Assembly (NCBI GenBank): GCA_001929475.1
Contig: LXFE01003465.1
Span: 1 to 21,139 of the forward strand
Source of the DNA: Neolecta irregularis DAH-3
Lineage: Eukaryota > Ascomycota > Neolectomycetes > Neolectales > Neolectaceae
DNA: 21,139 nt
Reading direction: 5' to 3'
Part shown: positions 500 through 21,139 of the stretch, piece after piece
Position numbering within the stretch: the first letter of the stretch is position 1
Layout of the letters: the number at the start of each line of letters is the position of its first letter
The notes under the pieces: generated by a model
Told to the model about the DNA's origin: nothing
Seen by the model: the letters and a program-made list of their open reading frames with translations, nothing else
Database searches by the model: none
Position numbers and translations under genes: made by a program

Positions 500-3400
500 C
501 TACAGCGTTGAATCTGGTACAGGGACTGCTTCCTGCCGGAGCCGGTACGTCAGGAGAAGATCACTACTATCTTTCCAGTGAAATTGTCGAAGTGTTCCTA
601 GAGTTATTGTAGGAGTAACAACCTATAAGATCAAAAAAAATACGATATAGTAGTCAAAAAAGAAACCTTGTCCTTGCAAAGAATCTCTAAATCCTCAAGT
701 CTATTTTCTTGTGGTTTTCCACCTCCGGTTTCTAAAGATTCACTTTCCGGAAGTCGTTCGTAAATAAACAAAATAATCTTTCTTACTCGAAGCATTCGAT
801 TCGCATTCAACCGCGAATTCCTTCTCTTGTTAGCTCTATATGAAAAATAAACTAAAGTGAAACAGACCCTATAGGCAGACATTTCAATACACTGCCTGGG
901 TAAGGTTTGAGATTGAAGCTCACTTTCTTTATATCTTGATTCGAAACTTTTCCCTCGAGATGAGAACATACTCCCGAACCATGTTCATACCAAAAAAAGC
1001 ATTTCCCCCAGCCAAACAGGGGCTACATATTCAAGAGTTTCGATGTCCTGTATTACAGTACCCACTGTTCCCCGGTATACATCTAAAAGTCCTACCGAGT
1101 CTGCCGGAGCTTGAGATAGGATAATAGTAGTCTCAGGTGGCATTCTACAAGTAGGTGGATCCAAATGTGTAGCTGTCGATAGTGGTTGACCTTGCCGAAT
1201 TGATTCAAATTTGAGTTGAGTCTGTCTCCTCAAGACTTCGCCAAATGTAGCAGGTGCAGGTGTCGTGGATACATCCGGACTATCAGGCGCGCGAGAGCCC
1301 GCATCCACTGATTTCCTTCCACTTTCAGACGATGGTGATTCGCGCATATTTCCAGCTGATACTGTTCGCGATAATTTTCTACTCCCAAAGAGCCTGAATT
1401 TCTGCATGAAAGAATTGGAATACGGACTTGCTGGACGTGCCGATGTTGTCGTGGGCAGAGATCCTCTTCTATCGATCATAGACGGACGTTCATAAGGGGA
1501 ATGATGGGAACCAGGGAAATATTCCCACTGGTTAGTTGACCTTCGGTAAGACTCTTGTGAGACTCGGGCAGTAGGCGGGGCAGAAGGTGATGTAAAAGAT
1601 GGAGGAAGAGTAGAAACCATCGTACTTCTTGGACTACGTGGCGAGTCAGATTCTTCGCTTTCTTCTTTCATGGAATGTAGGTTTCGGGGCATATTGAAAC
1701 TAATGGGATCGTATGCAGGAGCAGGCGTTGCTAGCCCAATGTTCAACCCCAGATTCAATTGGCCGAATGGTGGAATACGGAATGAATGCATGTCTGGAGA
1801 AAAAATAGTCCTCGATGGTTGTAAAGATTGTAAATACCCAAGTTGAGGGACGGATCCTGAACGAAACGCCCTGCGAATATCGGTATGTAGTGCAAGTCCT
1901 GCTGCGACATTTTCTGGGGACATCTCTGCAAGGTCTTCGAGACTTCCGAACATGTTCTTCAAAGTCCAGCGAGCAAGATGTACTATCACTAAGACTCGTT
2001 TCTATGACAATCATACCGCGCTGATCATCCTTTACTTGTACATCAAGATCGAGCTCGTCCGCGTAAGCCTCACCTGTGAAACATGTATTTTCTGATAACT
2101 CGATCATTAAAATTCCTAGCCGGATGTCTGCACGGAACCATTTTTCTCGAAAGATATCTGTTTCCAACTTTTTCGCAACATATTCAAGAGAGGAATCTGT
2201 GAATATTTGCGTCGAGATACCCTATCATGTTAGTTTATAAAAAGTCTAAATCTTTAAAAGACTTTGACAACATCCCACACTACAACACTTCCATCTGTGT
2301 CAGAAGTCAAAACATGCTGCCTATCGTTCAACTCAAGAGTACTAGTAACTTTGGCCGATCCTTCGAGCACCTCGAAGATGTAGGAGTCCAAAGGCTGATC
2401 TGACGAGGGTGTAAGTGTATCTTTGATCTCAACCGGTGGGTTGCTTTCTGCAACATTGTTCAAGGGTTTACGAGAAGACTAGCAAGTCAGAAGCGATAAT
2501 GAGGAAGAGAAACACACCCGCTTTGTTATTGCAGAGGACTTTGTTGCGACCCAAAGGTCTCCATCCCATTCTGTCATTTTGAGAATACCAGATTGTTCTT
2601 GTGACAAGTAATTTAAACTACATGATTCGCCTCCCATATCGAGAGCAGTACGAAATATACAACCATTTCGATCGGCTGACCAAAACAATTGTAGAAAAGG
2701 ATCACGGGAATGTAATGACCAAATGCTCGCTGCATGCATCTCCAGAGAGGTGACACATCGGCGTTCAGGAATTGACCAAACTTTAACAGTTTTATCGGTA
2801 CTTCCAGATATCAGCTAAAGTGTCAGAGATATTTTCATTCAAAGACTCGTGCTCTACGGCCGTCTTCACTGATTAAAAGGGATCGAACGTTGTCTTGATG
2901 TCCTGATAATGTTGCAATACTTTGACCAGTATTCGAATCCCATAATCGTATTAAATTTTCAGGGCTCCCGCTGGCTATGATATCTGTCGAAGCTGCAAGT
3001 GCATGTACACTTCCCTTTTGGCCAGGTCCGGTACTACCCACATCGATAGTAAGCCTGCTTCCTGACCCATTCAAGTCCCATAAATAGATACGCTGGTCGA
3101 GACCTCCAGATGCTATCCAATCGGCATTTGCAGATGGAGACGCAAGACATTTGACAAAATCATTGTGGTGCCCGAGCGTGTGGGGTAACGATCTCATCTC
3201 TCGTGGTCGCCACAATTTGACAGTTTGATCCGAGGAACATGAAATGACTACGGATATCAGGTCAGTAGAGCAGGCTTGTCACCATTTTGTCCATGATGGG
3301 TTAATGCTATATCATTTATCCAGTGAGTATGTGCCTGGAACTGATGTTTGAAAGATGTAGACGGCGAACTGGGTTTCTACAATTAGCAATAGCATACAAA

Positions 3401-3640
3401 AGACCCAACCTCTTCATTTACAAATGAAATTTTCGTATCTGACCGTGACTGTGCTTTATGGTTGAGATTCCAGCAGCAAAGGAGGCCATCCCGACCGCCG
3501 CTATATAAAACACCCGAGCAGGTATCGTCAGAATCTGTAATGTAATTCGCCTTTGTATCTATTTCCAAAGCATTAACGCCCAATCTGTGTCCTGGATTTG
3601 GATTCGGAGTGTTGAGAACATAAGATATTTTTGATGGCAT
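500..3640 (-). CDS. WDR48: WDR48/UAF1-like WD40 protein (deubiquitinase activator)
   Basis: Ten exons: 3640-3422, 3376-3283, 3247-2847, 2814-2518, 2478-2263, 2221-2017, 1982-991, 953-868, 820-667, 622-500; 928 residues. All phases agree. Residues 1 to about 409 form the WD40 propeller, starting KISYVL...HRLGVNAL and LYSGGRDG, with HTHWIND, SGGLDQRIYLWDL and SGSTDKTVKVW blades. A Ser/Pro-rich linker of roughly 300 residues follows. The C-terminal DUF3337-type domain has YRGTV, SRLNANRMLRVRKI and TPTITLGTLRQFHW. In animals UAF1 binds and activates USP1, USP12 and USP46; the fission yeast counterpart is Bun107. The start is the ATG nearest the conserved block; in-frame ATGs at 3664 and 3685 are alternatives. 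Intron 1 could be 3409-3377 (33 nt) rather than 3421-3377 (45 nt). Introns are 32-47 nt. The gene diverges from the acetyltransferase and converges on the TilS-like gene. Confidence 0.93.
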
Positions 3641-3732
3641 CGGTTTCTCCTTCTCGACCCTCATCGACTCGTTCGGCACTGTCATCTCAAGTTCGTCTGT
3701 AGTAAATATCGCCAAACACCTGAACAATTCTG
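3641..3732. promoter_or_regulatory. Short divergent promoter region, WDR48 / acetyltransferase
   Basis: Only about 92 nt separate the proposed WDR48 start (3640, -) from the acetyltransferase start (3733, +). With the upstream WDR48 ATGs the gap falls to about 68 or 47 nt. The two genes must share regulatory DNA or have promoters inside each other's first exons. I see no clear TATA box. Confidence 0.5.
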
Positions 3733-4456
3733 ATGGCCGGAACTCATGCAGCTGCTCCGATCCGTGTCGAGAAAGCAACAGACGAAGAGGTAGTAATCGT
3801 ACGAAAGTTGGTGGTTGATGGTGAGTGATAATACACGGTACAAATAACTGCTAAGTCAAATAGAGATTCTTGGACAAGCCAGTGCTGCGAATAATCGAGT
3901 GTATTTAAAACTGAGTCCGTTCCTCGGTGCATCAACATTTGCACTGCTGTTTTTGCTGAGAGCGGATCTGGGACAGGCGATTATTGTTGTTGCAGGAGTA
4001 CTGGCCATCACTTTTATTACTATCGCGTGGTGGACTTCGACTATCTATGAGGCAGATGCACTGGCTATTCTGCAGAAAGACGCAGGTCTGGAATGCCTAG
4101 AGAAACATTATGGCAGTGGCAGTGCAATAGCACGTCTCGATGATCAATTTATCGGGTTCGTTGCCGTCGAAACTTCACTCGACAAAATTGCAAATATCAA
4201 GCATTTGGCCGTGAAACACTACGCAAGACGCAATGAAACAATATGCCATCTACTGCAACGCGCCATTGACTACGCCATGGACCGCAAAGTAACAATATTA
4301 CGAATTTCCGTTCTCAACACCATGGATAGAACTGAACACCTTCTCCAGCAGTACAAATTTCGAAAAACAGGACGTTCAACCACAAAAGAAAGGGATTTCC
4401 TCTTGAGATGGGCCGGAATACGGACGATTGAATGGGTGTATGAGCCAGAATCATGA
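3733..4456 (+). CDS. NAT8-like membrane-anchored GNAT acetyltransferase
   Basis: Two exons, 3733-3820 and 3864-4456, joined across a 43-nt intron with a GTGAGT donor; 226 residues. The second exon alone has no usable ATG; splicing supplies MAGTHAAAPIRVEKATDEE, a typical GNAT first strand and helix. Two hydrophobic segments follow (about 48-62 and 68-86, separated by RADLGQ), so the protein is likely a membrane hairpin with the catalytic domain cytosolic. That arrangement is known from animal NAT8-type N-acetyltransferases. The GNAT fold continues with IGFVAVE, KHLAVKHYARR and a C-terminal LLQQYKFRKTGR block. The acetyl-CoA loop normally reads Q/R-x-x-G-x-G/A; here it is RRNETI (151-156), with both small residues replaced, so activity is open. 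The substrate cannot be told. The stop is 68 nt from the convergent dynein stop. Confidence 0.8.
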
Positions 4457-4524
4457 TAACATGTACTGTATTTATGATAAAGATTCTACGACATAACAAC
4501 TCCTGCCCGCCCTTTTCTACGCCG
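4457..4524. other. Intergenic gap between convergent stops
   Basis: These 68 nt hold the 3' ends of the acetyltransferase (+) and of dynein (-). The sequence is AT-rich at 4457-4500. I see no defined terminator; the two 3' untranslated regions almost certainly overlap. Confidence 0.5.
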
Positions 4525-7500
4525 CTATGAATCACCCGCATAATCATCCAGTAAATTCTCTAGGATTCTGTTGACTTTAGAAAGCATTGCTTTACCTGAA
4601 AGTTAGAAGTTTGCTGAGCATTGAAACTTACCTTGGTTTGTCAAAAGAAGTCTCTCCGCGTTCTCGGGAAGCCCCAGCCACGTTGGTGGTTGTCGTTCTG
4701 GTAATTCGCGTACCCACTGCATGAATTGTTCCATTCTGCTACCCTCGGGTGCTTTCACTGAGTCGGGTGAAGCTACAAGTTCAAAGCCGAGATCAAATGC
4801 CTTGGATGACAACGTGTAGTTAACTATTTTGTCGAGGGCAAGCTGATCAGATTCCTCGTCAATTCTTCCTCCATAGATGGATTGAGACAGTAAAGTGCAG
4901 ATTGCAGACCACGGAATTTTATCAGGTGAGAGGTTGGATCTTCCAGCGCTAGTATCATCAACCCATGTATCAATAACAAATGCTGCGCATTCGAAATCGG
5001 AATCGTTAAATTCATAGCCTTTAGACCATCCTAATGGAACGTATCGTAAGCGTTCAAGAATAACGGCATGAATCCAGGATAATAAAAAATATAACCGTCC
5101 ACGTTCAACAGGTTGTTTGGAGCATCGTTCCATAGAGAGACTGCGAAGAGATTCGGTCATATTGGCCTTGATACCAGGAGGCGGTTCGAACATAAGGATT
5201 CGAGATATTCGTAATAGACTTACGGGAACTTTAGTGCTAATTTCCATCGTCATAAACAACCGAAAATTAGGGTGAGATTTCAGTCCATGAAGTCGCTTCT
5301 CGAGGTTACCCAGCCATTGTGTTGAATGTGAAGCAAGGTGGATATTTTTAAGGAATACCCAGGACCCGGCCTGTGCAGCTGAGGTTATCGCACGTTCTGC
5401 TTGACTAAATCCTTCCTCAGAACCCATTGCAACAGAAGTACATTTCATTTGAAGCTTGCTGATGAGGTTGTCTACCTTGAAGCTAGCATCGTACCCTGGA
5501 ACAGAGCATAGAGCTAGAGGAATATTAGAATGGACTTCTTTCATAACGAGTTGCTCAAAGTCGTATTCGTTGTCTGTGAGTGTATTTTTTCCTAGGACTG
5601 TTGCAACGTATTTTTCTGCCGATGGGATAAGCCGATCATTGCGAAAGATTTTAACATAGAGTAATGAATGAAGGGCATGATCAACATCTATCTTTTCAAT
5701 ACAGGCAAAATAGACGGCCATACCAGTAGCGTCTCGTTCTAAGAGATTCGAAACGTGTTTCTCGGCAAATTCATCATTTAGAAACTTTTGCCATTCTTCA
5801 GAGTTTTGTCCTGCTAGAGAAGTGATTCTTTCGGTTCCAGGAATTCGAGATAAGACTTGTAGTTTCCCATGCAGTAGAGAAATCCTTTCAGAATCGGTGG
5901 ATAAATCGCAACCTGAGATTGATTCATCCATTATGCTATCCAGTATAGTAGAGTTCATCTCCACAGGCGCAGCTTGAGCTAGCAACAGTGCTAGAACGAG
6001 GTGATCTTCGTGAAGAAGAGCTTGCGAGGTCTTCGCAAAGGTTGATGTAAAAATTGCCCTAGTAAGTAGATCGACTCGCTTACCATAATCCGATATGTCA
6101 TCTAGTTTCTTCGTGTCCTTGAGAACAGACTGAAAAATGCCCTGGAAATAATCCAATGAAAACTGATAAAAGTGATTCAGCTGTTGCAGTTGCTCCAATG
6201 TAACAAAGATAGTACTGCACGCTACTGCGATAGGTTTATATCGAGCCGTTATTTCTTCAACTTCCAACATGACTCCTTCGGTTTCTGAGACTTTTCTTGT
6301 GATTTCAGCAGCTTCCAGCTTAAGGGTCTCAAGTGTAGCAATAACAAGATCATCATCAAGAATGTTGCCTTGCGATTCATTCAGTGCCTGTAGCAGGCGT
6401 TTTTCGAGTCTTCGAAGGTGCAATTTGAACTCCCCTTGGCTCTTGATTAAATTGTTCCGTCGTTGATCAACATCAGGCCTCTCTGTTTTCAGGACTTCGT
6501 TGAGACATTGCGCTTGTAGACTACTGCGGGTTGTGGTAAAATTGACGAATGTTACCCGACCACAGATATCAGGCGAGAATGTTGCAGAAGGATCTCGGGT
6601 ACAGAGATATAGACGGAAGGCTGGCGAGAAATCAATTTCTTGTTTTCCAAGTTGTATCAATACACGACCACCAGTTTTCTGATACTCTTTGTTAAGGACA
6701 TGATTGAGGATTGGATCCAAATATTCGGCGTCATGGATGAGAATCGGATTACCAAAACGTAACGCACTTTCAAGATGTTTAACGAAGGCATCATCTAGGA
6801 AACTTGTAATGGTCAATTTACGTTGATCGCTTTGACTGAGCAGAAATTGGACTGCTTGGCCAGAAGGATCGATGATTAAAGGATATCTATTATGCCTCTT
6901 GAGCATAATCGCATTTTCTGTGCAAAGATCATCCGCTGGTAAAGACTGTTCTTGCCATTGGAGTTTGTCGTCTGCAGTACAGAGATACTCAGAGATACGG
7001 TTTTGCTCCTCAAATTTTATGCCAGATGCCTGAAGGAATGCAGTCCACATATCGCGCATCACAGTCCGATAATGTTGGTCGTATAATCCAGCATATGCCA
7101 GGAATGCAGCAGAAATCAGAGAATCACCAGCAATGGTGCTGATTTGCTGATCGAACGACCTGCTTCCTGATTCCCACCGCTCACGTTCAGATGAAAGACT
7201 GTCAAGAAGCTTCAGACTTCGATCTACTTTTGATTGAACTCGATTCATCTCGCTTTTGAGCATTTGAGTCTCGCTGATCAAGACTGCATATTCGTCTTTG
7301 TAACGTGCAATACTTGTTTCCAACTCATTAATCATCTCGATAATAGTCTGGGCTTGTGCCTTTGTTTCGTTGGTTTTCTCTTCAAGTAATCTGACTTCAT
7401 CTCGGAGGGGACCAACTCGATCGAGAATTTCCGAGTAGTTGACCTGAGCAACTGCCCATTGGACCAAAGGGCCGCAAGCTTTACTCGCTCTGTTGACCGT

Positions 7501-10500
7501 TTCGAAATTGTAGTTCGGTTTTGATAAATACTCCGATTGCATTTTCAGACGAAGACTTTTTGTCATTTGCTTCTCATTGTCGTAATTGACGATACTGGTA
7601 ATGAAATCGTCACGACGTATAATTCCTTGAACAGTTTTCCAACTGTCGACCCTGTTACCAAGCAATGTACATACAGATTCCATAGCCATTTTTACAGCCT
7701 CAGGAGGATTTGCCATCGAACGGACTTCCGTGAGATGTTGTTTCTTGATACTGCTGACACTTCGTTGCGCTTCCACTACAGCAGGCTCGGCCCGAGCAAG
7801 ATCATCGAGAACCACTTTCTTTCGTTCTGCAATTTCCTCATCCTGAACGGCAAGGTCTTCTTGAATCTTCAGCGAAGCAGAGCGTTTTTGTTCTGCATCT
7901 CGCTGATCAGCCACCATGCGTTGCAATTTTTCGTTTGCTTCAGCGCTCTTCTTCTCTAGCTCACGTTGCTTTTGAGCAAGGTCTTTCCGGAGATCGTTGA
8001 CTTTGAGAACAGTATCTTGCAATTTTTCAAGACCGACATTGAGATGGCGTTGCTGCTCTTCGAGATCTTCTCGCTTTTCGTTGTACAGTTTCACATAATG
8101 ATCGACGAAATCGAGATAGTGTCGAGGGGTCAAAAAGGTTACAACGTTATGAGACTTTCTGAGTTTCACATTGATCTCATGCATAGAAGAATGTATATAG
8201 ATCATTGCGTTAACGACAGCTTGGCGATGTGTTGGCGGGTTAGGAAGCTCAGAATAGCAGCTCTGAAAGTGGGAAGGCGGTTGATAACTAGCTACATCGA
8301 GGTCAAGTGTTTGAGTAAATTCCGAACCGACTTGAAAGAATGCTTGTTCGGACCAATCTCCAAACCAATTCAAAACGCAACGATTGAATAATGCTGGGGA
8401 GGTAGCCGCTTTTGAGGAAAGACCGCCTTCTGGAGGGTTCATCGTAAAGACAACATGAAGATTCTTGACAATCTGTTGTGTGAACCATCGATAAAGTTCC
8501 TCCGGAGAATCGAGCAAAAGGCCGGCACGTTGGGCGTTCTCTTTACAACTGCTCATCAAGGTCGTTAATTCATCGCCTTCAAAAAGTCCGGGAACTTCGG
8601 CGTTTGCCAGCAAAGTGTTCATTCTTTCCAAGAAGCCTGTGTCAAGGACGTTTGATTCGTCCATTATGAAGCAGATTTTTTCCCCTTTACAACCGGCACG
8701 ACGAAGGACATCTCGCAAATCCTCATCGAAATCCAAAGCACTATATTTGTTGTGTACTTTGATCTGAAAGGTCTTCAGGCCATTCATCCAGGCAACAAAC
8801 CGAGAAAGTGTAGTCTAAATGTTAATACTTCCAAAAATCCTTTATATTACCTTTCCACTCCCACTAACTCCTATTAGAATGAGATGTCCTTGGGGCTGCC
8901 TGAAGACACGATCAATCCGTAGTACGTGATCGAGGACATCATTAAAGAGCACCAATGGGACATCGAGTTCCTCTTCGCAAAATGTTTTAAGCCTCGCTTT
9001 GGTGTAATCTCGAAGCTGCTCGCGGTCAACTGGGACATAATCCTTCGATAGCCAGTTAGAATAAAGGATTGGCTGTCGGAGGGCTTCCTCGAGATTGATG
9101 CCGGGGAAATGCTGATCAGCTATCTCAAATACAGCCCTTTCAGTCCATTGCCTCTCATCCTCATTTACGAGACGATCTTGGAATAATCGTAAAGCTTCAT
9201 GCGCCCATAATCGAACTAGACCTTCGATAGTCAATGTCTCAAGTGGTTTGATAACCTCATAAATCCCACGAATCCAGCGACTCAACTCACGAGGGCTGTA
9301 GACATAATGCGCCTGAACTGTCGCATTGAATTTCGCCTGGGATTTTAAATAAAAATCCACCATAGCTCCGGTAAGAGGCTCAGAATATCCCCGTAAATTA
9401 GGGACGCATTTAAGGATGGCTTTGATGAATGCTCCATAAATTTGCATCAATGACTCTTTGCCTGGATAATCGACCATGACGAGCGGTGAATGTCGAAGAA
9501 ACCGATGGGCCAGTGGTGTTCTACCGGCATCGGTGGGAGGGTTACAAGCGCCAACGAATTGAATGCGTTCGAGAGATACCCACGCCTTGTCTGAGGTTCG
9601 CCAAAATCCATTATGCTCCACCAGTTGTCGGAGAAATGAGATGACCCGTTGAGTGCCATATTTGTCGGGAGCAGGTAAATTGATTTCATCACAGAAGATG
9701 ACTAGCCAGCGTCCAACTTGAGTCGGGGCGAGCATAATTCCATTAAGAGTCTTTCGATATTCACAATATTGTTCAAAGACTTTAATCACAAGTTCTGGTG
9801 TAGTCGCATTGGAGAAATTTAGACCAGCAACTTCCATGTCTGGTAGCTTGCGAAGAGCACTGAATAATGTCATCGTCTTGCCAGATCCTGGAGGGCCGCA
9901 GAGAAGGACGGGACGATGGTCAGCTAGCCAGGAATACAGGACCTCTTCATGCCTGATTGTATCAACAGTTGGGATGACAACATCTGTTTGCGTGACTGAA
10001 TGAGTGTCAACCTCGGTGGTGGGGACTTTTGTGATCCAGGGAAGCCAATCCCCAGATGGTAAACTTACATCATAATCGATCGCGGATGCTGAAGGAACTG
10101 GCAGTTCGATAGAGGTAATCGAACAAACATACTTGCTTAACAAGTGGCGGTCTTCGAGAGGGCAGTCTCCAGAAAAACTCCATACTATGTCTAAAAGGAG
10201 TTTGCGAGTAACGTATTTCTCAATCTGAGCATCATCTAGTGGAAAGTCCTGATGCATGGCGTTATATTCAAGAATGTTGCGGCATGTGCGAGTAAGGAGT
10301 GAGAATATACTGGTTAGAGCACGGCCTTCAGTGAAGTCCATGATATGATCAAGTGATTTCGCTTTTCTTAGCGACTTGATGATAGCCCCATTGCCATCGA
10401 GAAATGGTTGTATGATATCAGCAAATTGTTCTTGGCACGCTAGGTTGCTCGCAACAGTTGTACCAATGGGCCTTTCGTCATCAATGTCGTCGAAGGATCT

Positions 10501-13500
10501 ATTTCGAATTGTATTGAGAAACTGAGGGAGGACCATCTCACATGTGGTCGTGTCCTCGCTGAACCAGACCATTCCACAACGACTGACAGTTGCCGGAGTA
10601 GCATAGCGAAGAGATTCAACCTCGAACATGATTCTGACAGACGGGGGCAGTCCAAGACGTTCTCCGTTGGGCAGCGTAAGAAGTTTGTTATCATCAAGTA
10701 CACTAGAATATATCAACGTGGCTTATTCCAGAAGATACCTATTCAAATTTTCGACCCATTCGGGATCAACATCACCGTCGAAAATGATCCAATGTCTCTT
10801 TGTGTCTTCGCCACGAACATTATCGATGATCTTCCTAAGAATAGAAGTGAAAAGACCATCTGTCCATTCTCGGGTCGTCGTATCAAGATTTCCGTAAAGT
10901 ATTTCTTTTGAGATAACTTTAGGGTCAATAATGTAATGGATCCCTTCAGTTCCTTCGACTTGCTGTAAAGCTTCCAGTAATACTCTCCACGCGCGCGATT
11001 TACCAGTACCTGAAGAACCAACCATCATAACTCCATGATGAATAGTCTGAATTTGATACAACTGCAACAGCTTGGTTACCCAGGAATCGTCAGCTTTGAG
11101 ACCCAGTCTGTCTGCTACTTTTCGAATGGCATCAGTTAGCTTGGTCAAATTTGCTGGAATATAAACCGCATCTGGAAAGGCAGTTTTTTCAATTCTACAT
11201 CATTAGTGATATAATTGAAGGCGGCGTACTTTTCCATCAGCTCGACATCATTTCCCACGAGTTTAGGTGCAATAGTCTCTCGAAGGCTTTGTAAAATAAG
11301 CACCTCTTCTGAAGACTCTTCCAAATCTTTCGAACCTTGTAGCAATCGAGCCCGTTTAATATTTCCCGAAGTCGTTAAAACGCTTTTAAGAGCCCGAAGA
11401 CCGAAATCGTAATGTGATTGAGAAGATAATTGTTTCGAACAAGCTTCAAAGAAAGGTACCACCCGGATGGCAAGATCTTTTGCGTTGTGAAATCCTTGCG
11501 AATATAACATTACTTGAGCGATAAGTTCTTTGTCTGGCTTAGTCATCGCAATGCTTCTGAACAACTTTTTCAAGTTGTCTGGCAAATTGGATCGGCCGGC
11601 ATAACCGGGATTCATTGTAATAAAAATTCCTTTTGTTGAGTAATGATAAAACAAAACTAAGTACCTGTGTCGGCATGAATTTTGAATGATTTTCCAATCA
11701 ATTCAACTTGAGCCTGTGAGTCATGTTGTAAAGCTTTCAGCCCGAGCTGAATGCTCTGGATTTGTTGCGAAACAGCACTCAGTATTCGCTCTTCCAGTCG
11801 ATTGAATTCATCAAAGCAACCCCATGCACCAACTTGACAAATTCCAAGGAAAATTCTGCCCATAGCTTGAAAATCAAAGGTATCATCACAACAAAAAACG
11901 AGAACAAACTTTCCAAGCTGAACACCCAAAGCCTTGACGGATTCAGTTTTACCTGTTTATTTAGTCAAAAGATTATTTGATTCTGATTTACCTGTCCCAG
12001 CAGGTCCATGCGGCGATCCACCTAATCCTCGGCGTAGGGCTTGAGTCAATGTCAAGAAACAACGGTCTGTTAATGGTGTTTGAACAAGTCGATCGGCGAC
12101 ACCGAGGTATTCATATCCATAATCGAATACAGCGCTAGCCATGCTAACTTTTAAACGATCAATTGGTTCGCCCTCTGGATTGTAGCAGAATCGCATATGA
12201 GATAGCCATCTAAAATCATGTGGATTGACAACGTTTCCTGCCTTCAAAGAGTCAATAACGTCGCGTTGGTGAACCATTTCTGTTATCAGATGTTCACACT
12301 TCTTTCGTTTGATGCCATCAATATCCTCAAGGACGAAGCTAGCAAGTCTCTTGAGGACTTCATCTACCCGTTTACCTGGAGAGTTGAGAGCTTCAAGATC
12401 TCCTTTATTGCAAGCCAGAAGAGCGTCATCAACTGAAGTAGTCCACATTGTTTGCATCGCAAGAACGACAATCTGAGCGGGATATCGGTAAATCCATCCA
12501 TCTAAATCGTCAGGATTGACTTCTTCATGCGTGTAGAGTTCCTGAAGGTCAGAGTAAGCTGAGGACAGAAGTAGAGCGAGGGTAGTCTTCATCCCATGTT
12601 CAAGTGCACCCAACCAATCGTTAATCTTTGGGATTTTTATGAGCGATATCTCACGTCGAAGAGTCACGGTCTCGCCTTCCCGAGAGGTGAAACCGAGGAT
12701 AACCGTGGAATCTTCACTGAGCTGTAATCCAGAGAGACCGGCAAACATTTTCTTCAAATGCTTTTGTACACGGATAGTATCTTTGCTGTTCCCGATGAGT
12801 TCCAATAAATCTTCGTCTCCAACAAAGTAAAAGCGCGGGAACGAGCTTCTTTCCCGTTCGAGATATTCCCCAAGAGCTTTTTGGATTTTTCCAAGTAGCT
12901 CAGCAAGGCGATCAAGTGATTTCTGCAAATTCGAGATGTTGAGGATATCAAGAACGAATGGCGATTTTGAAACTTTTTTCATGACAGCTAAAAATTCGGT
13001 ATTGATGTTTTGAAAGCGAGATGATTCCACAGGAAGTAACTGTTTTATATCTGCATTACCAGTGAAGATGCCTTCGAGATAAACCCACTGTCGCTGAACA
13101 TCGATCCATTTATCAAAAATATTGTAGGTTCGATTTAGTTTATCATCCCATGACGAGGCCTCCTCCTCAAATATTTTGTAATATGGCGAGTTCTTCATCG
13201 CACTGATTGAACTGATATGTTCTCCACATTTTGCAAAGAGGTCATCCCATCCTTTGATAAGCCGGGTTTTATTCTGGTAATTGACGAGGTCAACCACGTA
13301 ACCAGTCCATGTTTCTCGAACTTGCTTCAGATATTCTTCGAGAGCCATTTCACCTTGAGCTTGCCCGATAATATCGCGGATGATGGTTTCATTGCGCGTA
13401 ACGTCGAGATCCCAAACATCTCCAAGAGTCAGTGCCGAAAGAGAAATTCGTTCTCTTGGTCGTAGCGCTTTATGAATGTTGATCCAGTGTCGTTCTCTCA

Positions 13501-16500
13501 TGGCATCCGACTTCATATCTATCAGCAAAGTGTTAACCTTGACAAGCTGTTTCAGTTTGTTCTCGATGAACTCGAAGGCGGCATATTGCCTCATCCGACT
13601 GGGCATTTCTTTTACCATGGTCAGTTGACTGTCAAGAGCTGCTCGGACTTTTCGGGGAACAACAGAGGCCCACGGAGTATCTCGCAGATCACTGAGCGAC
13701 TTCCATATCGTTGATAAGGCAGACCAGACGGACTTGAAATCTCGTACTTCTTCAAGAACGATATCGAGAACATTATCACGGTGAACTTCAAGATCCAATG
13801 ACTCTTTGGCTTTATTGACGAGTTCGCTGTCATGACTGAATTTCGTCATTTTTTCTTCAAACTGATTGAGCATCTCAGTTGCCTCAGAAGGATCAAGATT
13901 TCCAGCGATGGGTTTGTTTTCGTTCCATTCAACAACGATACTTTGTATTCTTTCGTTGACAACCTTATGTTCGGCGTTAATCTTGGCTTCGAGAGCATCT
14001 GCAAAGTCAGAAACAACATCCAGAGACAATTTACCTAATTGTTCCTGGACAAGTCTATTCTTTCGTCCAAGAATCTCTTTCAACGCCGCCCAGTCACCTT
14101 CAACTTGTTCTACAAACAGCCAGTCTTTTGGAAACTGGTATCGTTGACGAGACAAAGCAGTCTGACCTTTTTGGAAGATTTCGATTTCAGGTGCCCAAGT
14201 CGTCGTCTTACGTTTACAGTTTTGGACGGTAGTAATGAATGAAACAGCACTAGCAGTCGATGATGTTTCGAGAGATTGTTGCTCTAAATCATTTCGAGCT
14301 TTTAGTACTTCCACGAGAAATTCACGCATTCGATTCCCAAGTTTGTTCGCAAATTGTAAGAGAATATCACGCTGCCACGAATCATATTTCGCATTAACTC
14401 GACCTTGGACCTGTTCAAAATCCACTACAAGGAACCCGAATGTCTTTGACACATCTGAAGTGTCAAATGTCGATCGAGATTTTCGAATTTCAAGCAAAAT
14501 TTGTAACCACCTTGACAGATTCTCATCGAGAACATTATACACTTGCTCAGCTTGAAGATCCCACAATGATTGGAACTGGAGCCACTTGTCTATGTATAAA
14601 GAAGCTTCTCGTAAACGATTCTCAATAGCAGTGTATGAACGGAACAAATGACTTTGAGTAACATCGGGTATCTAAATATTAGCCACTTTTGGCAAGATGA
14701 AGCCAACTAAAGTATCAAATTTTTGGGGACCCTGTTGGACAGAGGTGTTGAGATTGACGCTGATTTCGTAACGGGACGCCTGCAATTTTTGTAAATTACA
14801 AATGACGGCTATTGATTAGGCACAGAACCGAAAAGTGGCACACAGATCCACCGCTGAAGCTGTACGAGCCATCTCTCTCGAGCGTATTCTAGGGGAGGAT
14901 CAACATAGATTAGTTGATTTCGTATGCAAATCTCATGGTGTAACGGCGAGAATTTTGGTTCAATGCCAACTTCTTCGGTGATAATAGCCTCTTCTTTGCG
15001 ATGGTTGCGATTACTTCGAGAGATATCTCCATTCACATCGCGAGAAAACACCTCAACCCAGGCGTCTATAGCAGATTTGAGACGATCGAGAAGAATGGTT
15101 CCGATATTCTCATTGAGGCGTTGTACCCATTGATAGAGATTACTAAAATTTTCAAGATTAAGCTGGTCAACGCAACTTTGCACGACAGAAATCCACTTCT
15201 CGAAATCATCTACTGCGTATGCACAAGTACGAAGCTCTGCGATAGCACTCTGTACTTTCTCGTAGACTGCAATTAATAAATCAGTCTTTGATTTAAGGTC
15301 GGAAACGGTAGCAGCGAAATCTCGAACAAATTGAACATGGCGAGATTCTCGATATCCAGCTCCAGCTGCATCAAAAGATCCATTTGGTAAATAGTTTAAA
15401 GGACGAAGATGAGCATCAAACGAATGGACGAACGAATCCCACTTGAGGTTGATACCTAAAAATAAATACAATTTCAATTAACTCGATAAACCCTTTGCAA
15501 TTTGCCCCTGAATTTCCGTCTGACGCTCGGCAAGGAGCATTGAGATATCAGATGTACTTTGAATTTGTTCGACTGTTTGAGCGTATGTTCGTACGGTTTC
15601 CATCAGAGTAACAGCATATGGATAAACACGTTTGGCTTCCTTGGAAACGTTTGTGATTGCATGAGGGACTTGAAAGTTGAGCCAAAGAAGATTCCGGACT
15701 TCTTTAAATAGCGCAATGACCTGTGGTTCGAAATTGACTACGAGTTCAAGGGTATTTCCAGCGCTTCGATTGCGAATGATGTTGAATATTCGTCCGTTGA
15801 CTGCAAGATTACGCCGCGAAACTTCGTGTAGCCAACTCTCGTAGATCTACCGGTCAGGGTCAATTAGTGGTGGATGTACCGGTCTTGTTTCGAGTTTCTT
15901 TCTGAAAATGCTACTCTCATTCTGCAGTTTTTGACCTTCGGCGTACAAAGCCCATCCTTTACCCAGTACATCTTCAACACGCTTCATATACGTATTAAGT
16001 TGACGTTCGATTTGTCGAGCCCAGATTATAGCGCCCGATACCGGAGGAATATCGTGCAATTGGGCCATAGCATGGGCTTCCGAGTTCCCATATTGCTGTT
16101 TGAACCGATCATGAAGAGAAGCAATATCAGCCTTGACGTTCTCAATCAGTTGAGTTTGGTATTCTTGGATAGCCCCTCGAATTTTGGGACGAACAAAGAG
16201 GGCATTGAATTTAGAAAACACTCGAAACATTTCATTAGCGGTTCGAGATTTTCCAAGTCGATCACGTAAACGAGCAATAATAGTATTCTCGACACGAGAA
16301 ATGCGCTCGTTGTATGTGTTCTCAGCAGCAACCCAGGCTTCAGTACCCTCTTTTCAAGTCAGCATGAGATCTGCAAAAAGTTTACCTGCAGAGACATCTA
16401 GAACATTGGCATCTTTCAGAGCAGCAAAGGCTTGGGTGACTTCCTCAATAGCGTCGATATCACTGATTCCGTCCAAGGCGCCTTCAAAATCACCAGGCGA

Positions 16501-18132
16501 CGTAGAGGTGAGGACATTCTTTATTGTCTGCTGAAGCTGTTCGTGACCTCGTCGAAAGGCTTTAACATAGGCAAGACGTTCTTGTGATTTTGTATGCTTG
16601 GCGTTAATCTTGATAGGTATGAATTTTTCGGCTCGTTTGCGAGTAACTTCTCTTGCAACGTTTGTAAACTCTTTAATCTGATCGTCCCAAGTACGAAACA
16701 CATCTTCAGCGGAATCCATGAGTGTATTAAAGTCGTTGAATTCGAGGTGCATAATACGACGGCCACTGAGAAGGGTGTGTAATTGAGAATCGAGGTCGGC
16801 CGATATAGCTTCGACCAAGGGAAGAGCTCGACGAATTGGATATGGACAAATTCGGAGTTTCTTATTGAGATGACTGAAAATTTGGAGGATAGCCTCCTGG
16901 ATTCGTTCGAGGCTGGTTGCGGAAAGTAGTTCGTTTAATGGAAACTCCCGCATCAACTGGTTGTACTTGTGAACTTGATTGGTGAGGAAACATTACAGCT
17001 GTAGTCATACCCTTGTCAATAGCTTCTTTAAGACCGGTATCAGCGATGAACCCGACTGTTGCATGAAATCGTTTTGCTTGGCGTAGAATTTCAATGGTCA
17101 AGATAACACCGTCACTACGAAGTTGTCGATCTATTCCTTCTAGTGCGGTTTCCATTGAAAGCCAAAAATTTATTTCCTGAGAAGCGGTTCCACTAGAAGG
17201 ATCTCTAGACATTTTTGTGATTGTTTGGATAGACTTTATCCATGAATTGACTGACGATTGAAGATGATTTAAAAAGATACTGTCCATGAGTAGATTCTGG
17301 GGCACAAGGCTTAAACTAGGTTTTCGATTGCTGGAAAGAGCCTAGAGTGAATATTTCCACTAATATCTAGTATACCTCTTCAATCGCCGCTTGAAGAATA
17401 GGATGAAAATTGAGAGAGATTTCAGGGATTTCAACATTCTGTTGAAGATGAAGTAGCGAAAGTTCCAGTTCTGCAATCTTTTTCTTTGTCACGGGTATAC
17501 CTAATGGATCAGCCGATACTTGAGTCGGTATACCGGTTTTTGATTCAACATCAGTGACTTTAGCCACGGAGCCCGGTTTCTCCTTTTCTTTGGTGTATGT
17601 ATCAAAGTAGGGAGCAACAGCATGATGAATTAGAGAGTAGAGTATTTCGTAAGGCGATGTTGATCCAGAAGCATTCCCAAGAGCCAGAGTCCCTGGCAAA
17701 TTGACAATCTGCAACTGGATTGCAATGGGTATTGTGGAATCGAGAACAATTGATCTTTTTATGAGCGCAAGAGATGCTGCTGTGGTTGGTGAGGATGACA
17801 GTTCATGTCCGAGAGAGTAGATGTATGATGGCGAAAGCGTATCTAGCAATAAATGACAATGCCGGTAGCAGTATACCGGTATCATCCTGCTGTATGGTTT
17901 CTGTAGCTTCCTTCTTTACATACAAGGCCATGCAACTCGGTTCTGTAGCGAATTTCGCGCATCGCTGCAGGGTTTCTGGGTATGAGAAAAGACTTGAATC
18001 CAGGTCGTTGGGTGTAGCCCCTAATGCAACCGGCACAAGAGCCGCCAAGAATTTCGTCAATAGTGCTGGATTGAAAGGTGTGATGAGAGACGGAGAAGCA
18101 TTTGCAGCAGGACCATCTCCCTCGTCTTCCAT
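4525..18132 (-). CDS. DYN1: Cytoplasmic dynein heavy chain
   Basis: Fifteen exons: 18132-17877, 17842-17376, 17341-17011, 16973-16386, 16349-15880, 15846-15492, 15455-14824, 14779-14708, 14671-11992, 11952-11665, 11629-11230, 11194-10739, 10702-8851, 8814-4632, 4595-4525; 4366 residues. All phases agree and introns are 33-44 nt. It is the motor that carries cargo and nuclei to microtubule minus ends. The tail shows GRIFNI, LELVVNF and [19 protein letters not shown]. The linker includes [13 protein letters not shown]. Walker A motifs: AAA1 GPAGTGKT (about 1946-1953), AAA2 GSSGTGKS (about 2239), AAA3 GPPGSGKT (about 2601), AAA4 GVSGSGKT (about 2943). Walker B examples are GCFDEFNRL and CDEINLP. 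The coiled-coil stalk and microtubule-binding domain (NPPEAVK, about 3315-3440) follow, then AAA5-6. It ends soon after WLGLPENAE, so it lacks the C-terminal cap of animal dyneins, as fungal dyneins do. No inactivating change was seen. Confidence 0.98.
8815..8850 (-). other. Dynein intron at the AAA4 Walker A motif
   Basis: A 36-nt intron falls directly after the Walker A lysine of AAA4 (GVSGSGK, then TTLSRFVAW in the next exon). It begins GTAATA, contains ATTAAC before the TTTAG acceptor, and brings an in-frame stop at its third codon. Confidence 0.9.
11953..11991 (-). other. Dynein intron inside the AAA1 Walker A motif
   Basis: A 39-nt intron splits the last glycine of GPAGTG from KTES. 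Its first bases (GTAAATCAGAATC) closely copy the first bases of the next exon (GTAAAACTGAATC), and both are preceded by ACAG. Retention keeps a lysine after GPAGTG but soon meets an in-frame TAA. Confidence 0.9.
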
Positions 18133-18294
18133 ATCGTAAGAGGGACAGATAGGGGACGGATAATTGATGAAATGGCTGATTTACGTGGAGTTTTCTTGTT
18201 GAGGTACACGAGAAAACGTGACTTCTTTCTATTAAAAACTTTTATCAAGGTACTCGAAATATTCCCAGATGCCTCTCACCACCCTCTTTTCCTA
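18133..18294 (-). promoter_or_regulatory. Upstream region of the dynein gene and 3' region of SEC14
   Basis: These 162 nt lie between the SEC14 stop and the dynein start, both on the minus strand. They must hold the SEC14 3' end and the dynein promoter. I see no convincing TATA box; on the minus strand a TTGATAAAAG stretch (near 18240-18250) could serve either purpose. Confidence 0.4.
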
Positions 18295-19380
18295 TCAAAC
18301 TGCATGTCCCGGCACGGGTGCTGGAGCAGAAGCCGTAACCGTCGCAACAGTCGTTTCTCCGCTGTATTCGGCGAGTTTCCAAGGGCCTTGGTCAGACAAT
18401 TCGCATCCGCCGGGACATTCACAGGTACCGCCAAACTGTGTGGGCAGATTCTCAGCCGGGATAAGCTCAAGAAGGACTTTTTGATAGTCGGATCCCAGGA
18501 TGTTGATTTTTTTGACGGTGACTTCGTCCAGGAGCGGTTTGACTAGTTTGAAAGCAGAAGCAAAACCCCAGGGCGCATTGATCATGACGAGGGTGCCCAT
18601 TCGTTCCGGGTAGTAGTCTTGGCCGATTGTGGACGCCTGTTTGAGATATCCGTAGACTGAACTGATGCTTGAGATACCGATGCCCTTCAAGTCCAGAATG
18701 GTGCAGGAAGTTTCAATTAGCTTTCCCTCTTTTCGCGAACAGGCAGGCTAGTAAATTAGTCGCTGATGTATGCAAATAGAACCAAACGGGGGCTGACGAA
18801 TCGTTCGTACTCGTAGACCAGATTCTGGGTCATTCTTTCTGCCGTGGTGATCTTGTGCATCTCGGTAAGATTAATCTTTCCCAGCTGCTCGATATACACG
18901 GGTCGACCAGCCTAACGTCAGCTCTGAAAAGCCAAGACCAAACAATGTCAATCTTGTGGTAGTACTGTGGATAAAACTTTGTAATCTATAAATCAGGAAC
19001 GGGACAGAATATGAAAAAACCTCTGGTTTCTCAGAGTAAACAAAAGTCATGGAGATCTCGTCGACTCCGAAATCCGTTCTCCATTTCTCGCAGTTTATAA
19101 ACATCTCTTTAGCCTTGACAACATCGAATTTCCGAGCCCGGAGAAACCGAAGCTGCAGACGTCAGTAGAATTGGCGGCACAAATACCAGGCAAGCGTGGT
19201 CCAGACGTTCTGTATAACCAGCTTCAATAAGCTCTGAACGGAGTTGTTCAACTTTGTCTTCTTGCTCAGGGGTAGTATTTCCAGGATGACCTGGAGCAGC
19301 TTCTGGATTTGTTTGAGGGTAAGTGGATATATCGTACTGTCTGTATTACAACTGTGCAAGTACGGATTACGTACAGACAT
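18295..19380 (-). CDS. SEC14: SEC14-type phosphatidylinositol/phosphatidylcholine transfer protein
   Basis: Six exons: 19380-19375, 19336-19187, 19152-19021, 18985-18944, 18911-18783, 18747-18295; 303 residues, matching yeast Sec14p (304). Introns are 38, 34, 35, 32 and 35 nt. The protein moves phosphatidylinositol and phosphatidylcholine between membranes and supports Golgi secretion. The CRAL-TRIO N domain has [19 protein letters not shown] (from residue 52). The lipid-binding domain has [56 protein letters not shown] and the hallmark [18 protein letters not shown] near the end. The first exon codes only Met-Ser before a GTACGT donor, giving [18 protein letters not shown], a good N-terminus for the family. 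A longer overlapping frame starting near 19446 is out of phase with the protein. The usual acidic residue before GRPVY is alanine here. Confidence 0.94.
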
Positions 19381-19516
19381 ACTGGAGAGGTCTAATTGAG
19401 GTGGAGTGTAGATAGTCAAAATTTCCGGTATAGCAAGTCCAAACACCCTAAATACAAAAGCATGGTTTGAAAAAAGCGTGATATAAACTATTATTTATAC
19501 ATAAAACCAATGTCCT
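19381..19516 (-). promoter_or_regulatory. SEC14 upstream region with a TATA-like element
   Basis: This 136-nt gap lies between the stop of the SpoU methyltransferase gene and the SEC14 start, both on the minus strand. On that strand TATAAATA sits at 19499-19492, about 112 nt before the SEC14 ATG. It could be a TATA box for SEC14 or part of the AT-rich 3' end of the methyltransferase transcript; the sequence does not decide. Confidence 0.35.
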
Positions 19517-20547
19517 CTAAAAAGGTTTGAATCCAACATCTTCGTCTTCTTCTTCAAGCTCAACAGCTTCCTTTTGAGTGGTGGTATTCCATCCAGTGAG
19601 TCTATTCAACTCGAACAGGCCAATGGAAGCAAGCGATCCGACGTTTACTGAATTCACTTGTGGACCAGGCATGGGCAGCGCCATATAAATTGCATTTTTG
19701 GATATAAAAGGGTCATAGTCTCTGAAACTTTTTGTACCCACGACGAAGGCTATTGATTTTGGTAGTGTTTGTGGATCGACGACCGAGTCATCAGGTCTCC
19801 AGAAATGCAATTGATTTGGTTGAGCATTGGCGAGTTGAGATCGCGGGAGAGGAGTAGTGATTATTGGCGTGAGCTCCATTTCAGCGCAATGGGTAAAGAG
19901 TCCGCTTATTGTGCCCATGATGTGAGGAAATCGAAGGGTGTGAGCGCGGGACATGCATATTGCTTGTGGATCGTAGAAATCGATGGATCCTCTCATTGTA
20001 TAGGCTGCCTGCCAGCCCAGTGCTCGAGCAGTGCGAATGAGCAGACCCATAACCTGGCCCGAGTTGACATGGTTTAAACAGATCAAGCGTTTTAATTCAC
20101 CTTTGGCGGGATATGGGATATCTGGAAAGGGGACTTCTGCCCATAAATCGTGTTTTGCGGGTCGTGCCTGGGAGCCTAAAATTTTTCTTGTCATGTCTAT
20201 GGAAACGAGGTATTGACGGGTGGCGGGCCATTTTTCCGGGTTGCGGATGACATCTATAGCGGGCGTAAGAACCTCGTTTGGTTTCCACCATTCTTCTGGA
20301 GCACTAATGCCGAGACCACTGATTGGGACATTATCACGAATGAGGGCTCTGATGTCATTTTTACCCTGGACGATACAATGACGGCGCTCGAGACGGTATG
20401 ATTTATTTTTTTGCAGCCGTTCCATGTGTTCTATAATGGGATTGTGACTTCCCTAAAGATGAGGGAGGATTAATGGACTAGTACCTTTAGCCGAAACATG
20501 TGTTCGGGGAAGGGAATCTGCTTTGGTTTTGCTCCGATGATAGGCAT
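19517..20547 (-). CDS. SpoU/TrmH-family RNA 2'-O-ribose methyltransferase (probably mitochondrial rRNA)
   Basis: Two exons, 20547-20485 and 20452-19517, joined across a 32-nt intron; 332 residues. The N-terminal part (SHNPIIEHMERLQ, then RRHCIVQGKNDIRALI) is the substrate-binding domain found before SpoU domains. The SPOUT knot follows: LICLNH...GLLIRTARALGW (catalytic-type Arg161), GSIDFYDPQA, VVGTKSF and ALPMPGP followed by SVNVGSLASIGLFEL. The family transfers methyl from S-adenosylmethionine to ribose 2'-OH; yeast Mrm1 acts on mitochondrial large-subunit rRNA. Two normally constant spots differ: the DPGN-type stretch reads SGQV (152-155) and the Glu after the second glycine motif is Lys262. 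The third motif is intact. The start is the only nearby ATG not overlapping RAD18; it gives no obvious targeting peptide, so a start further upstream is possible. The tail is acidic (ELEEEDED). Confidence 0.85.
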
Positions 20548-20615
20548 GGTGAGGAAACTTTTTCGAATGGAAGAGACTAAGCCGGAATCTTCCGACCCCA
20601 AGATTCCGACTGCCG
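20548..20615. promoter_or_regulatory. Short divergent promoter region, methyltransferase / RAD18
   Basis: Only 68 nt separate the methyltransferase ATG (20547, -) from the RAD18 ATG (20616, +). The stretch is open in the methyltransferase frame, so a longer N-terminus could read through it. No TATA box was recognised. Confidence 0.45.
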
Positions 20616-21139
20616 ATGGACGTTTCCATTGATGATCCGCATGATTGGGCGGAATCGAGTGTTCCTCGACTGGGATCACTTGATTCTTATTTGCGGTGTC
20701 AAATATGCAAAGAGTGGCTGAATGCACCGATGATGACAGGATGTGGTCATACGTTTTGTTCGTCGTGTATCCGACGAGCACTATCGAAAGAGCAGGTGTG
20801 TCCGGTATGCAGGGCCAAAGATACCAGCGAGATGCAGCTGCGCAAGAATCAGCTTGTTGACGATATTGTAGAGAGTTTCAGGAAGTGTCGGTGAAACGAG
20901 TCTTTTTGCTGTAATTTATGCTAGACCTGATCTCCTTTGTCGACTTGGGGGATGCAGTCCATCAACGACAACAACGCAAGAATGTCCAATTTGTTTAAAC
21001 GACTATGGTCTGAACGAAATCCAAGGCCATGTAGAAGAATGTCTGAAGCCAATGAGGTATGAATATTCAAGTGCGATATTTCTAACGGGCAGGAGGTTTA
21101 GTCGAATAATTGTGCCGATCTAACGAGCAGGACAAAGCG
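20616..21139 (+). CDS. RAD18: RAD18 E3 ubiquitin ligase, N-terminal part (3' partial)
   Basis: Exon 1 is 20616-20890, exon 2 is 20925-21056; coding resumes at 21131 in the preferred model, and the gene runs out of the window. RAD18 with RAD6 attaches ubiquitin to PCNA at stalled replication forks and so starts translesion synthesis. A C3HC4 RING finger fills residues 28-65 (CQIC, CGHTFCSSC, CPVC), preceded by DPHDW and LGSLDSYLR as is usual for RAD18. After the first intron (34 nt) comes a UBZ4-type zinc finger with C112, C115, H127 and C131 (ECPICLNDYG, HVEECLK), which binds ubiquitin. The SAP and RAD6-binding parts lie beyond the window. The 34-nt first intron is preferred over a 67-nt alternative because it matches all other introns here and keeps frame. 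Beyond 21056 the splicing is ambiguous. Confidence 0.92.
21057..21130 (+). other. Tandem, mutually similar introns in RAD18 around a 3-nt exon
   Basis: Intron A is 21057-21092 (36 nt) and intron B 21096-21130 (35 nt), with GAG between them. Both have GT...CTAACG(G/A)GCAG and end in nearly the same 14 bases (CTAACGGGCAGGAG at 21082-21095, CTAACGAGCAGGAC at 21120-21133). One 74-nt intron is the alternative. Removing only intron B also leaves an open frame, because intron A is a multiple of three and has no in-frame stop. Confidence 0.6.

Follow-up and report, generated by a model that had tools for sequence, protein, structure and literature searches.

Introns of a short, narrow length class in a genomic window of Neolecta irregularis, including stop-less members kept as coding in a public dynein model

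We analysed a 21,139-nucleotide (nt) stretch of DNA from Neolecta irregularis DAH-3, a member of the Taphrinomycotina (contig LXFE01003465.1; hereafter the window), in which genes for WDR48, an acetyltransferase, dynein, SEC14, an MRM1-like methyltransferase and RAD18 are interrupted by very short introns. Very probably, these are ordinary U2-type introns that have been reduced to a tight length range close to a lower size limit, consist of two near-fixed parts and are removed by a conventional spliceosome by way of intron definition. The methyltransferase exon shows 100% identity to NEOLI_002515 of this strain, and the dynein and WDR48 models match its proteins at the same level.

Support for the introns and their lengths

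Thirty-one window introns, ranging from 32 to 47 nt with a mode of 36 nt, are backed by homology or by identity with NCBI gene models: 17 in dynein, nine in WDR48, four in SEC14 and one in the methyltransferase gene (Table 1). The initial annotation had listed 33 ultrashort introns in these six genes; it described a real feature with the correct range and mode, and slightly understated it. Three stop-less dynein introns with lengths divisible by three (3n) had been missed. Its counts for WDR48 and the methyltransferase agree with the public models: the spliced WDR48 protein (introns of 32–47 nt) is residue-for-residue identical to NCBI P0126, and the methyltransferase model, with a single 32-nt intron, to NCBI P0001. 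The spliced WDR48 protein matches DUF3337 over 1–171 of its 171 positions at 145.8 bits; the unspliced exon scored 34.3 bits. Four of the five introns ascribed to SEC14 (32–35 nt) lie inside an alignment to Sec14 (PDB 9efp_A), and the fifth, of 38 nt, is predicted only. The dynein introns measure 33–39 nt; 14 came from a first model, and the three stop-less ones were added by our gene model. All of the first 14 junctions occur in NCBI P0006 and 12 fall in sequence well conserved among 12 fungal relatives, including two P-loops. Outside the window, five spliced proteins each gave a Pfam domain in one uninterrupted stretch, though some of their models are unsound (see below). Besides the SEC14 N-terminal intron, the 43-nt intron of the acetyltransferase and the 34-nt intron of RAD18 are likewise predictions; the two others assigned to RAD18 form a 36 + 3 + 35-nt arrangement at the contig end.

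To place these lengths in a wider context, we used a gene-model sample of 36 sequences (~269 kb), comprising the window, 20 regions of 10 kb and 15 other loci, with six overlapping duplicate loci (L008, L012 and L014–L017) excluded. This is ~3% of the genome sequence searched, which holds 8,961,725 bases in 363 contigs versus the 14.5 Mb published (PMC5309816). Genes with less than 450 nt of coding sequence (600 nt in the flat 18–150-nt run described below) or with low scores were removed before introns were counted. The model imposed GT..AG ends; a first flat model without signals yielded poor gene models and was discarded.

With trained signals and a flat prior of 18–200 nt, the main run called 522 introns in 68 genes, of which 29 were 18–31 nt, 248 were 32–47 nt, 32 were 48–63 nt and 213 were 64–200 nt long. 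The reversed-sequence control gave 163 introns in 19 genes, 14 of them at 32–47 nt. When the branch term was omitted, the class still held 210 of 520 calls (24 of 244 in reversed sequence). Expressed per nt of length, the calls numbered 15.5 at 32–47 nt and 2.1, 2.0 and 1.6 at 18–31, 48–63 and 64–200 nt, respectively, so that only one class stands out in this sample, as in genomes of the Paramecium/Stentor type. The calls outside this class are spread flatly, in the manner expected of spurious ones, with room left for a minority of real longer introns. A start from a strictly flat 18–150-nt prior without the branch term also produced a peak, at 32–44 nt (152 of 415 calls, summed from the table). 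The commonest lengths among the 248 introns were 38, 37 and 36 nt (34, 32 and 31 introns), and the median of the class was 37 nt. The length histogram that had been proposed as a check, drawn here for the sample rather than for the whole genome, thus bears out the short class.

Splice signals, geometry and span

The 248 introns prefer the donor GTATNT (+3 A 0.74, +4 T 0.59, +5 G 0.38, +6 T 0.47), and the 39 short introns among 40 supported ones have T at +4 in 21 cases and G at +5 in 20. The donors had been described as weak, which holds only in part, given this preference and the predictive value of the donor (see below); position +5 is degenerate. The branch motif, nRCTRAY, is complementary to GUAGUA of U2. 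It was sought by expectation-maximization from seven seeds in 275 introns that had been called with the branch term left out and whose acceptor model spanned −8 to −3 and was not wholly blind to the branch region. Four branch-like seeds arrived at CTRAY (log-likelihood 99.6–99.8), a pyrimidine seed at a shifted CTGATnT (94.9), and a blank and a poly-T seed at TGATnTn, which is likewise shifted and weaker (63.6 and 63.9).

In the 248 introns, the distance from donor to branch A is ~24–33 nt and that from branch A to the 3′ end mostly 6–11 nt, a correction of the 5–10 nt from the acceptor first noted. Intron length correlates with the donor–branch part (r 0.87) more strongly than with the branch–acceptor part (r 0.39). 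In the 39 short supported introns, scored without a positional prior, the best branch A lay 6–10 nt from the end in 33; the other six positions are scattered and possibly misplaced. We found no clear pyrimidine tract in the 248 introns (T makes up 0.37 of the stretch from branch to 3′ end, versus 0.36 upstream) and no exclusion of AG between branch and acceptor (AG in 40 of 248, versus 39 of 248 in a control window). A search for sequence common to introns, as introners would leave, gave 3 shared 12-mers versus 4.3 in shuffles; 9-, 10- and 11-mers exceeded the shuffles (323/241, 92/65 and 25/19), which the common branch and splice motifs could explain.

To evaluate how much the short span contributes to recognition, we scored all GT..AG pairs in the dynein gene with signal models whose training set of 224 introns excluded the window, taking the 17 dynein introns as true. 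Among 577 pairs of 32–47 nt (560 decoys), the area under the receiver operating characteristic curve (AUC) was 0.997, with a median of 0 decoys above a true intron and a worst case of 20. Among 6623 pairs of 20–200 nt, the AUC was 0.994, the median 8 and the worst case 295. True introns ranked first among pairs sharing their donor or acceptor in 16 of 17 cases at 32–47 nt and in 12 of 17 at 20–200 nt. Single signals at 32–47 nt gave AUCs of 0.959 (branch), 0.922 (donor) and 0.844 (acceptor). The short span, which reduces competing decoys about tenfold in dynein, supplies real information and therefore fits intron definition; exon definition is unlikely because dynein exons reach ~3.1 kb (5724–8814, from coordinates). 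Intron definition over a short span by a conventional spliceosome is thus the likely mode, judging from decoy counts and exon size.

Taken together, these features suggest that U2-type introns shrank to a narrow band near a size floor, each combining a donor-to-branch and a branch-to-end part of near-fixed length. Recognition would draw on the branch motif as the best single predictor and next on the donor, with no clear pyrimidine tract; the short span would remove most decoys and allow an ordinary spliceosome to operate by intron definition. As a by-product, stop-less 3n introns would become readable as coding sequence.

Stop-less introns, splicing factors and the alternatives

Six stop-less 3n introns were examined: three in dynein (of its 17), two in Rab GDI and one in IleRS. 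The latter two genes were chosen because the model predicted such introns in them and are no random sample. All six are supported, with P0103 as an exception at one dynein site. NCBI P0006 keeps two of the dynein segments (13999–14034 and 5688–5723) as 12-amino-acid inserts, which are absent from 12 of 12 relatives. The predicted Rab GDI introns (L041, 1733–1765 and 1428–1460), if left unspliced, each open a gap of 11 residues in the alignment to PDB 3cph_G. The predicted IleRS intron (L024, 7415–7450), if left unspliced, opens a 12-residue gap at the HIGH motif in the best alignment, and one split 5 + 7 in a second. These six cases support the conclusion that 3n introns, when free of in-frame stops, can be mistaken for coding sequence, as has happened in at least one public gene model.

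The same segments might instead be optional introns (exitrons), kept in some mRNAs, with the NCBI protein carrying the inserts as a real isoform; being in frame and stop-less, they would let translation tolerate retention. We regard this as unlikely, as retention in IleRS would interrupt its HIGH motif and no dynein relative has either P0006 insert, although partial retention is still compatible with both observations.

Stop-less introns make up 10 of the 66 called introns of 3n length versus 72 of the 182 others, a deficit in the direction that counterselection would give, but one to which a caller prone to overlook such introns would also lead; in dynein they number 3 of 17. If 3n introns resemble the 182 others, ~13% of all introns are estimated to be stop-less and 3n. 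We advance a broader claim tentatively, with rather more doubt than conviction: that the two intron parts form a molecular ruler, set at the smallest size practicable for a conventional ascomycete spliceosome, and that about one in eight introns is both in frame and free of stops, so that many public models carry phantom inserts of 11–13 residues, comparative data on fungal multicellularity included. Interest in how complex multicellularity originated in Ascomycota was the reason for sequencing Neolecta (PMC5309816), in which 4202 introns have been counted, ~26% of them independently acquired (PMC7940399). If many stop-less introns persist in the Neolecta protein models, studies of innovation and intron gain would be based in part on artefacts. 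The intron geometry provides a natural series in which to test how short a span a conventional spliceosome will accept. The finding of greater use is the class of stop-less introns concealed in a public protein model.

The initial annotation had proposed a spliceosome adapted to intron definition over a very short span, and had named U1, U2AF and SF1 for inspection. Intron definition fits our data; adaptation is not borne out by the canonical U1 and U2. U2 small nuclear RNA (snRNA) was found at 132.8 bits with the canonical branch-recognition sequence GUAGUA, and a U1 snRNA candidate has the canonical 5′ end ACUUACCUG, with which the preferred donor can pair. A KHDC4/BBP-type KH exon (58.8 bits), ten matches to CCCH fingers and a METTL16-family gene (G000:C351:12003-12963, two matched parts 34 nt apart) were present in the searched genome. 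The presence of this gene rules out METTL16 loss as the cause of the +4 U, an idea drawn from the literature. In the 8.96 Mb searched, SF1-HH and Prp8 domain IV gave 0 matches, and their controls had no match either, so these results are uninformative; U2AF_lg gave 17 matches, none above the cut-off. The U6 Rfam family had 0 matches in the same sequence and its control matched nowhere, while two sequence patterns gave 0 and 1 match, the latter not U6 by Rfam; U6 could lie outside the searched contigs or be split by an intron.

A spliceosome itself remodelled for very short introns (in U2AF, SF1 or the branching factors) would be in keeping with the lack of a clear polypyrimidine tract, the degenerate +5 position and the SF1-HH and U2AF_lg results. 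Nevertheless, we consider it improbable: the sequences by which U1 and U2 recognize introns are canonical, and the KH exon and METTL16-family gene are present. The absences mean little because 8.96 Mb of 14.5 Mb was searched, an exon-wise search misses split genes, and Prp8 domain IV went undetected as well. Nothing found among the factors that could be checked points to remodelling. That the segments stem from misassembly, or are GT..AG pairs that lie by chance between frameshifted frames, is extremely improbable, as we found no positive support for it, conserved protein is restored at junctions in dynein, SEC14, Rab GDI and IleRS, and the reversed-sequence control and the branch motif contradict it.

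Several points weigh against short, conventionally spliced introns as the explanation. The window calls are computational and made from sequence, and the NCBI models may have the usual biases of gene finders. The length peak was obtained with a model trained in this analysis on ~3% of the genome, with signals learned from the same sequences that were then scored; the main-run parameters derive from a run with a prior favouring 25–69 nt, although the strictly flat 18–150-nt start peaks too. Lengths are not strictly uniform, contrary to the first claim, even though only the 32–47-nt class stands out in the sample: Rab GDI has a homology-supported 86-nt intron (L041, 2435–2520) with a GTAAGT donor and a CTAAC branch, and among domain-complete models elsewhere, L009 includes a 69-nt call and L018 a 63-nt one. 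Longer Neolecta introns thus exist and may carry stronger donors. A Ras-like model (L013) does not contain the NKxD motif expected in such a protein, so that this portion of it is probably incorrect. The U1 candidate scores 43.7 bits, under the Rfam cut-off of 69.5 bits, and intron definition itself is inferential.

Related genomes and further features of the window

Short spliceosomal introns are already known in this subphylum from Taphrina, and Neolecta adds a further case. Mean intron lengths are 48–51 nt in Taphrina, 61 nt in P. jirovecii and 81 nt in S. pombe (PMC4007546), which makes the general fungal yardstick of 50–80 nt or more, applied at first, too broad here. Neolecta shares short introns and a compact Taphrinomycotina genome with Taphrina and Pneumocystis jirovecii, but its median of 37 nt describes the 32–47-nt class only and is not like for like with their all-intron means. 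Not all Taphrinomycotina introns are short (Novakomyces olei, median 261 bp; PMC7912804), and Wallemia introns average 55–61 nt (PMC3849046). Introns of Paramecium (~25 bp) and Stentor (15–16 nt) also form a narrow length class, in Stentor with a near-fixed branch position, whereas those of Neolecta are longer (PMC9505925, PMC5014332). In Paramecium, strong pressure acts on 3n introns, which are enriched in in-frame stops (PMC5014332, PMC2911113), in contrast to dynein here. In-frame stop-less segments of doubtful status recall the annotated ultra-short 3n introns of Tetrahymena, but there orthologue alignments indicate that the annotated introns are probable artefacts (PMC5014332), whereas in Neolecta the relatives do not have the segments, which are introns mistakenly kept as coding. 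Yarrowia lipolytica is another ascomycete with a short branch-to-acceptor distance; its two motifs are ~1 nt apart and its donor is GTGAGT (PMC2911113), unlike the 6–11 nt and GTATNT of Neolecta.

No Neolecta intron lengths were found in the literature searched, whose reach excluded supplements and most subscription papers, and the word 'intron' is absent from the available main text of the genome paper (PMC5309816) and from that of a 2026 RNA sequencing (RNA-seq) paper. The latter says that no RNA had been extracted from the species earlier; the genome paper reports fruiting-body RNA. The genome is among those in PMC8476143, and an RNA-seq dataset, GSE300630, has been reported (PMC13263728).

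Table 1. Introns and intron-like segments of the window
Gene	Position	Strand	Length (nt)	Feature	Basis
WDR48	623..666	-	44	within DUF3337 match	spliced model = P0126
WDR48	821..867	-	47	within DUF3337 match; another run: 836-867	spliced model = P0126
WDR48	954..990	-	37	within DUF3337 match	spliced model = P0126
WDR48	1983..2016	-	34	no clear branch site	spliced model = P0126
WDR48	2222..2262	-	41		spliced model = P0126
WDR48	2479..2517	-	39		spliced model = P0126
WDR48	2815..2846	-	32		spliced model = P0126
WDR48	3248..3282	-	35		spliced model = P0126
WDR48	3377..3409	-	33		spliced model = P0126
acetyltransferase	3821..3863	+	43	predicted	gene model only
dynein	4596..4631	-	36		P0006, 12 relatives
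dynein	5688..5723	-	36	stop-less 3n; coding in NCBI P0006	12 amino acids absent in 12/12 relatives
dynein	8815..8850	-	36	splicing restores GVSGSGK/TTL	P0006, relatives
dynein	10703..10738	-	36		P0006, relatives
dynein	11195..11229	-	35		P0006, relatives
dynein	11630..11664	-	35		P0006, relatives
dynein	11953..11991	-	39	splicing restores GPAGTG/KTES	P0006, relatives
dynein	13999..14034	-	36	stop-less 3n; coding in NCBI P0006	12-residue gap in 12/12 relatives
dynein	14672..14707	-	36	flanks poorly conserved in relatives	mainly P0006
dynein	14809..14843	-	35		P0006, relatives
dynein	15456..15491	-	36		P0006, relatives
dynein	15847..15879	-	33		P0006, relatives
dynein	16350..16385	-	36		P0006, relatives
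dynein	16974..17010	-	37		P0006, relatives
dynein	17342..17375	-	34		P0006, relatives
dynein	17501..17533	-	33	stop-less 3n	11 amino acids absent from P0006 and 11/12 other relatives; P0103 has 5 other residues
dynein	17843..17876	-	34	flanks poorly conserved in relatives	mainly P0006
SEC14	18748..18782	-	35		continuous alignment of spliced protein to Sec14 (PDB 9efp_A)
SEC14	18912..18943	-	32		Sec14 alignment (PDB 9efp_A)
SEC14	18986..19020	-	35		Sec14 alignment (PDB 9efp_A)
SEC14	19153..19186	-	34		Sec14 alignment (PDB 9efp_A)
SEC14	19337..19374	-	38	first (N-terminal), predicted; another run: 19341-19382	gene model
MRM1-like methyltransferase	20453..20484	-	32		model = P0001; P0002 (83% relative) collinear across
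RAD18	20891..20924	+	34	predicted	RING exon joined in frame to exon with C-x2-C..H-x3-C pattern
RAD18	21057..21092	+	36	candidate segment, stop-less 3n	branch-like TTCTAAC
RAD18	21096..21130	+	35	candidate segment; GAG (21093-21095) between both segments	branch-like ATCTAAC

Several other calls were dropped. Those at 1048–1080, 1316–1362, 1469–1511 and 1926–1983 in WDR48 do not occur in P0126, nor do those at 8871–8909, 17205–17234 and 14672–14865 in dynein occur in P0006. The SEC14 call at 18387–18428 is retained in the Sec14 alignment. A call at the acetyltransferase end (4438–4482) and plus-strand models at 1–1846 and 18269–19039 overlap WDR48 or SEC14 or pass a plausible stop.

At the RAD18 end (21057–21130), each of the two units has CTAAC shortly before its final CAG, and the contig ends 9 nt further on (21139). 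Candidate arrangements are a 3-nt exon, one 74-nt intron or some other structure. The start codons of WDR48 and the acetyltransferase are divergent and ~47 nt apart (3685–3733), as befits a very compact genome. The start of the contig (1–46) consists of 12-bp repeats that, read by eye, encode Asn-Glu-Ala-Asp.

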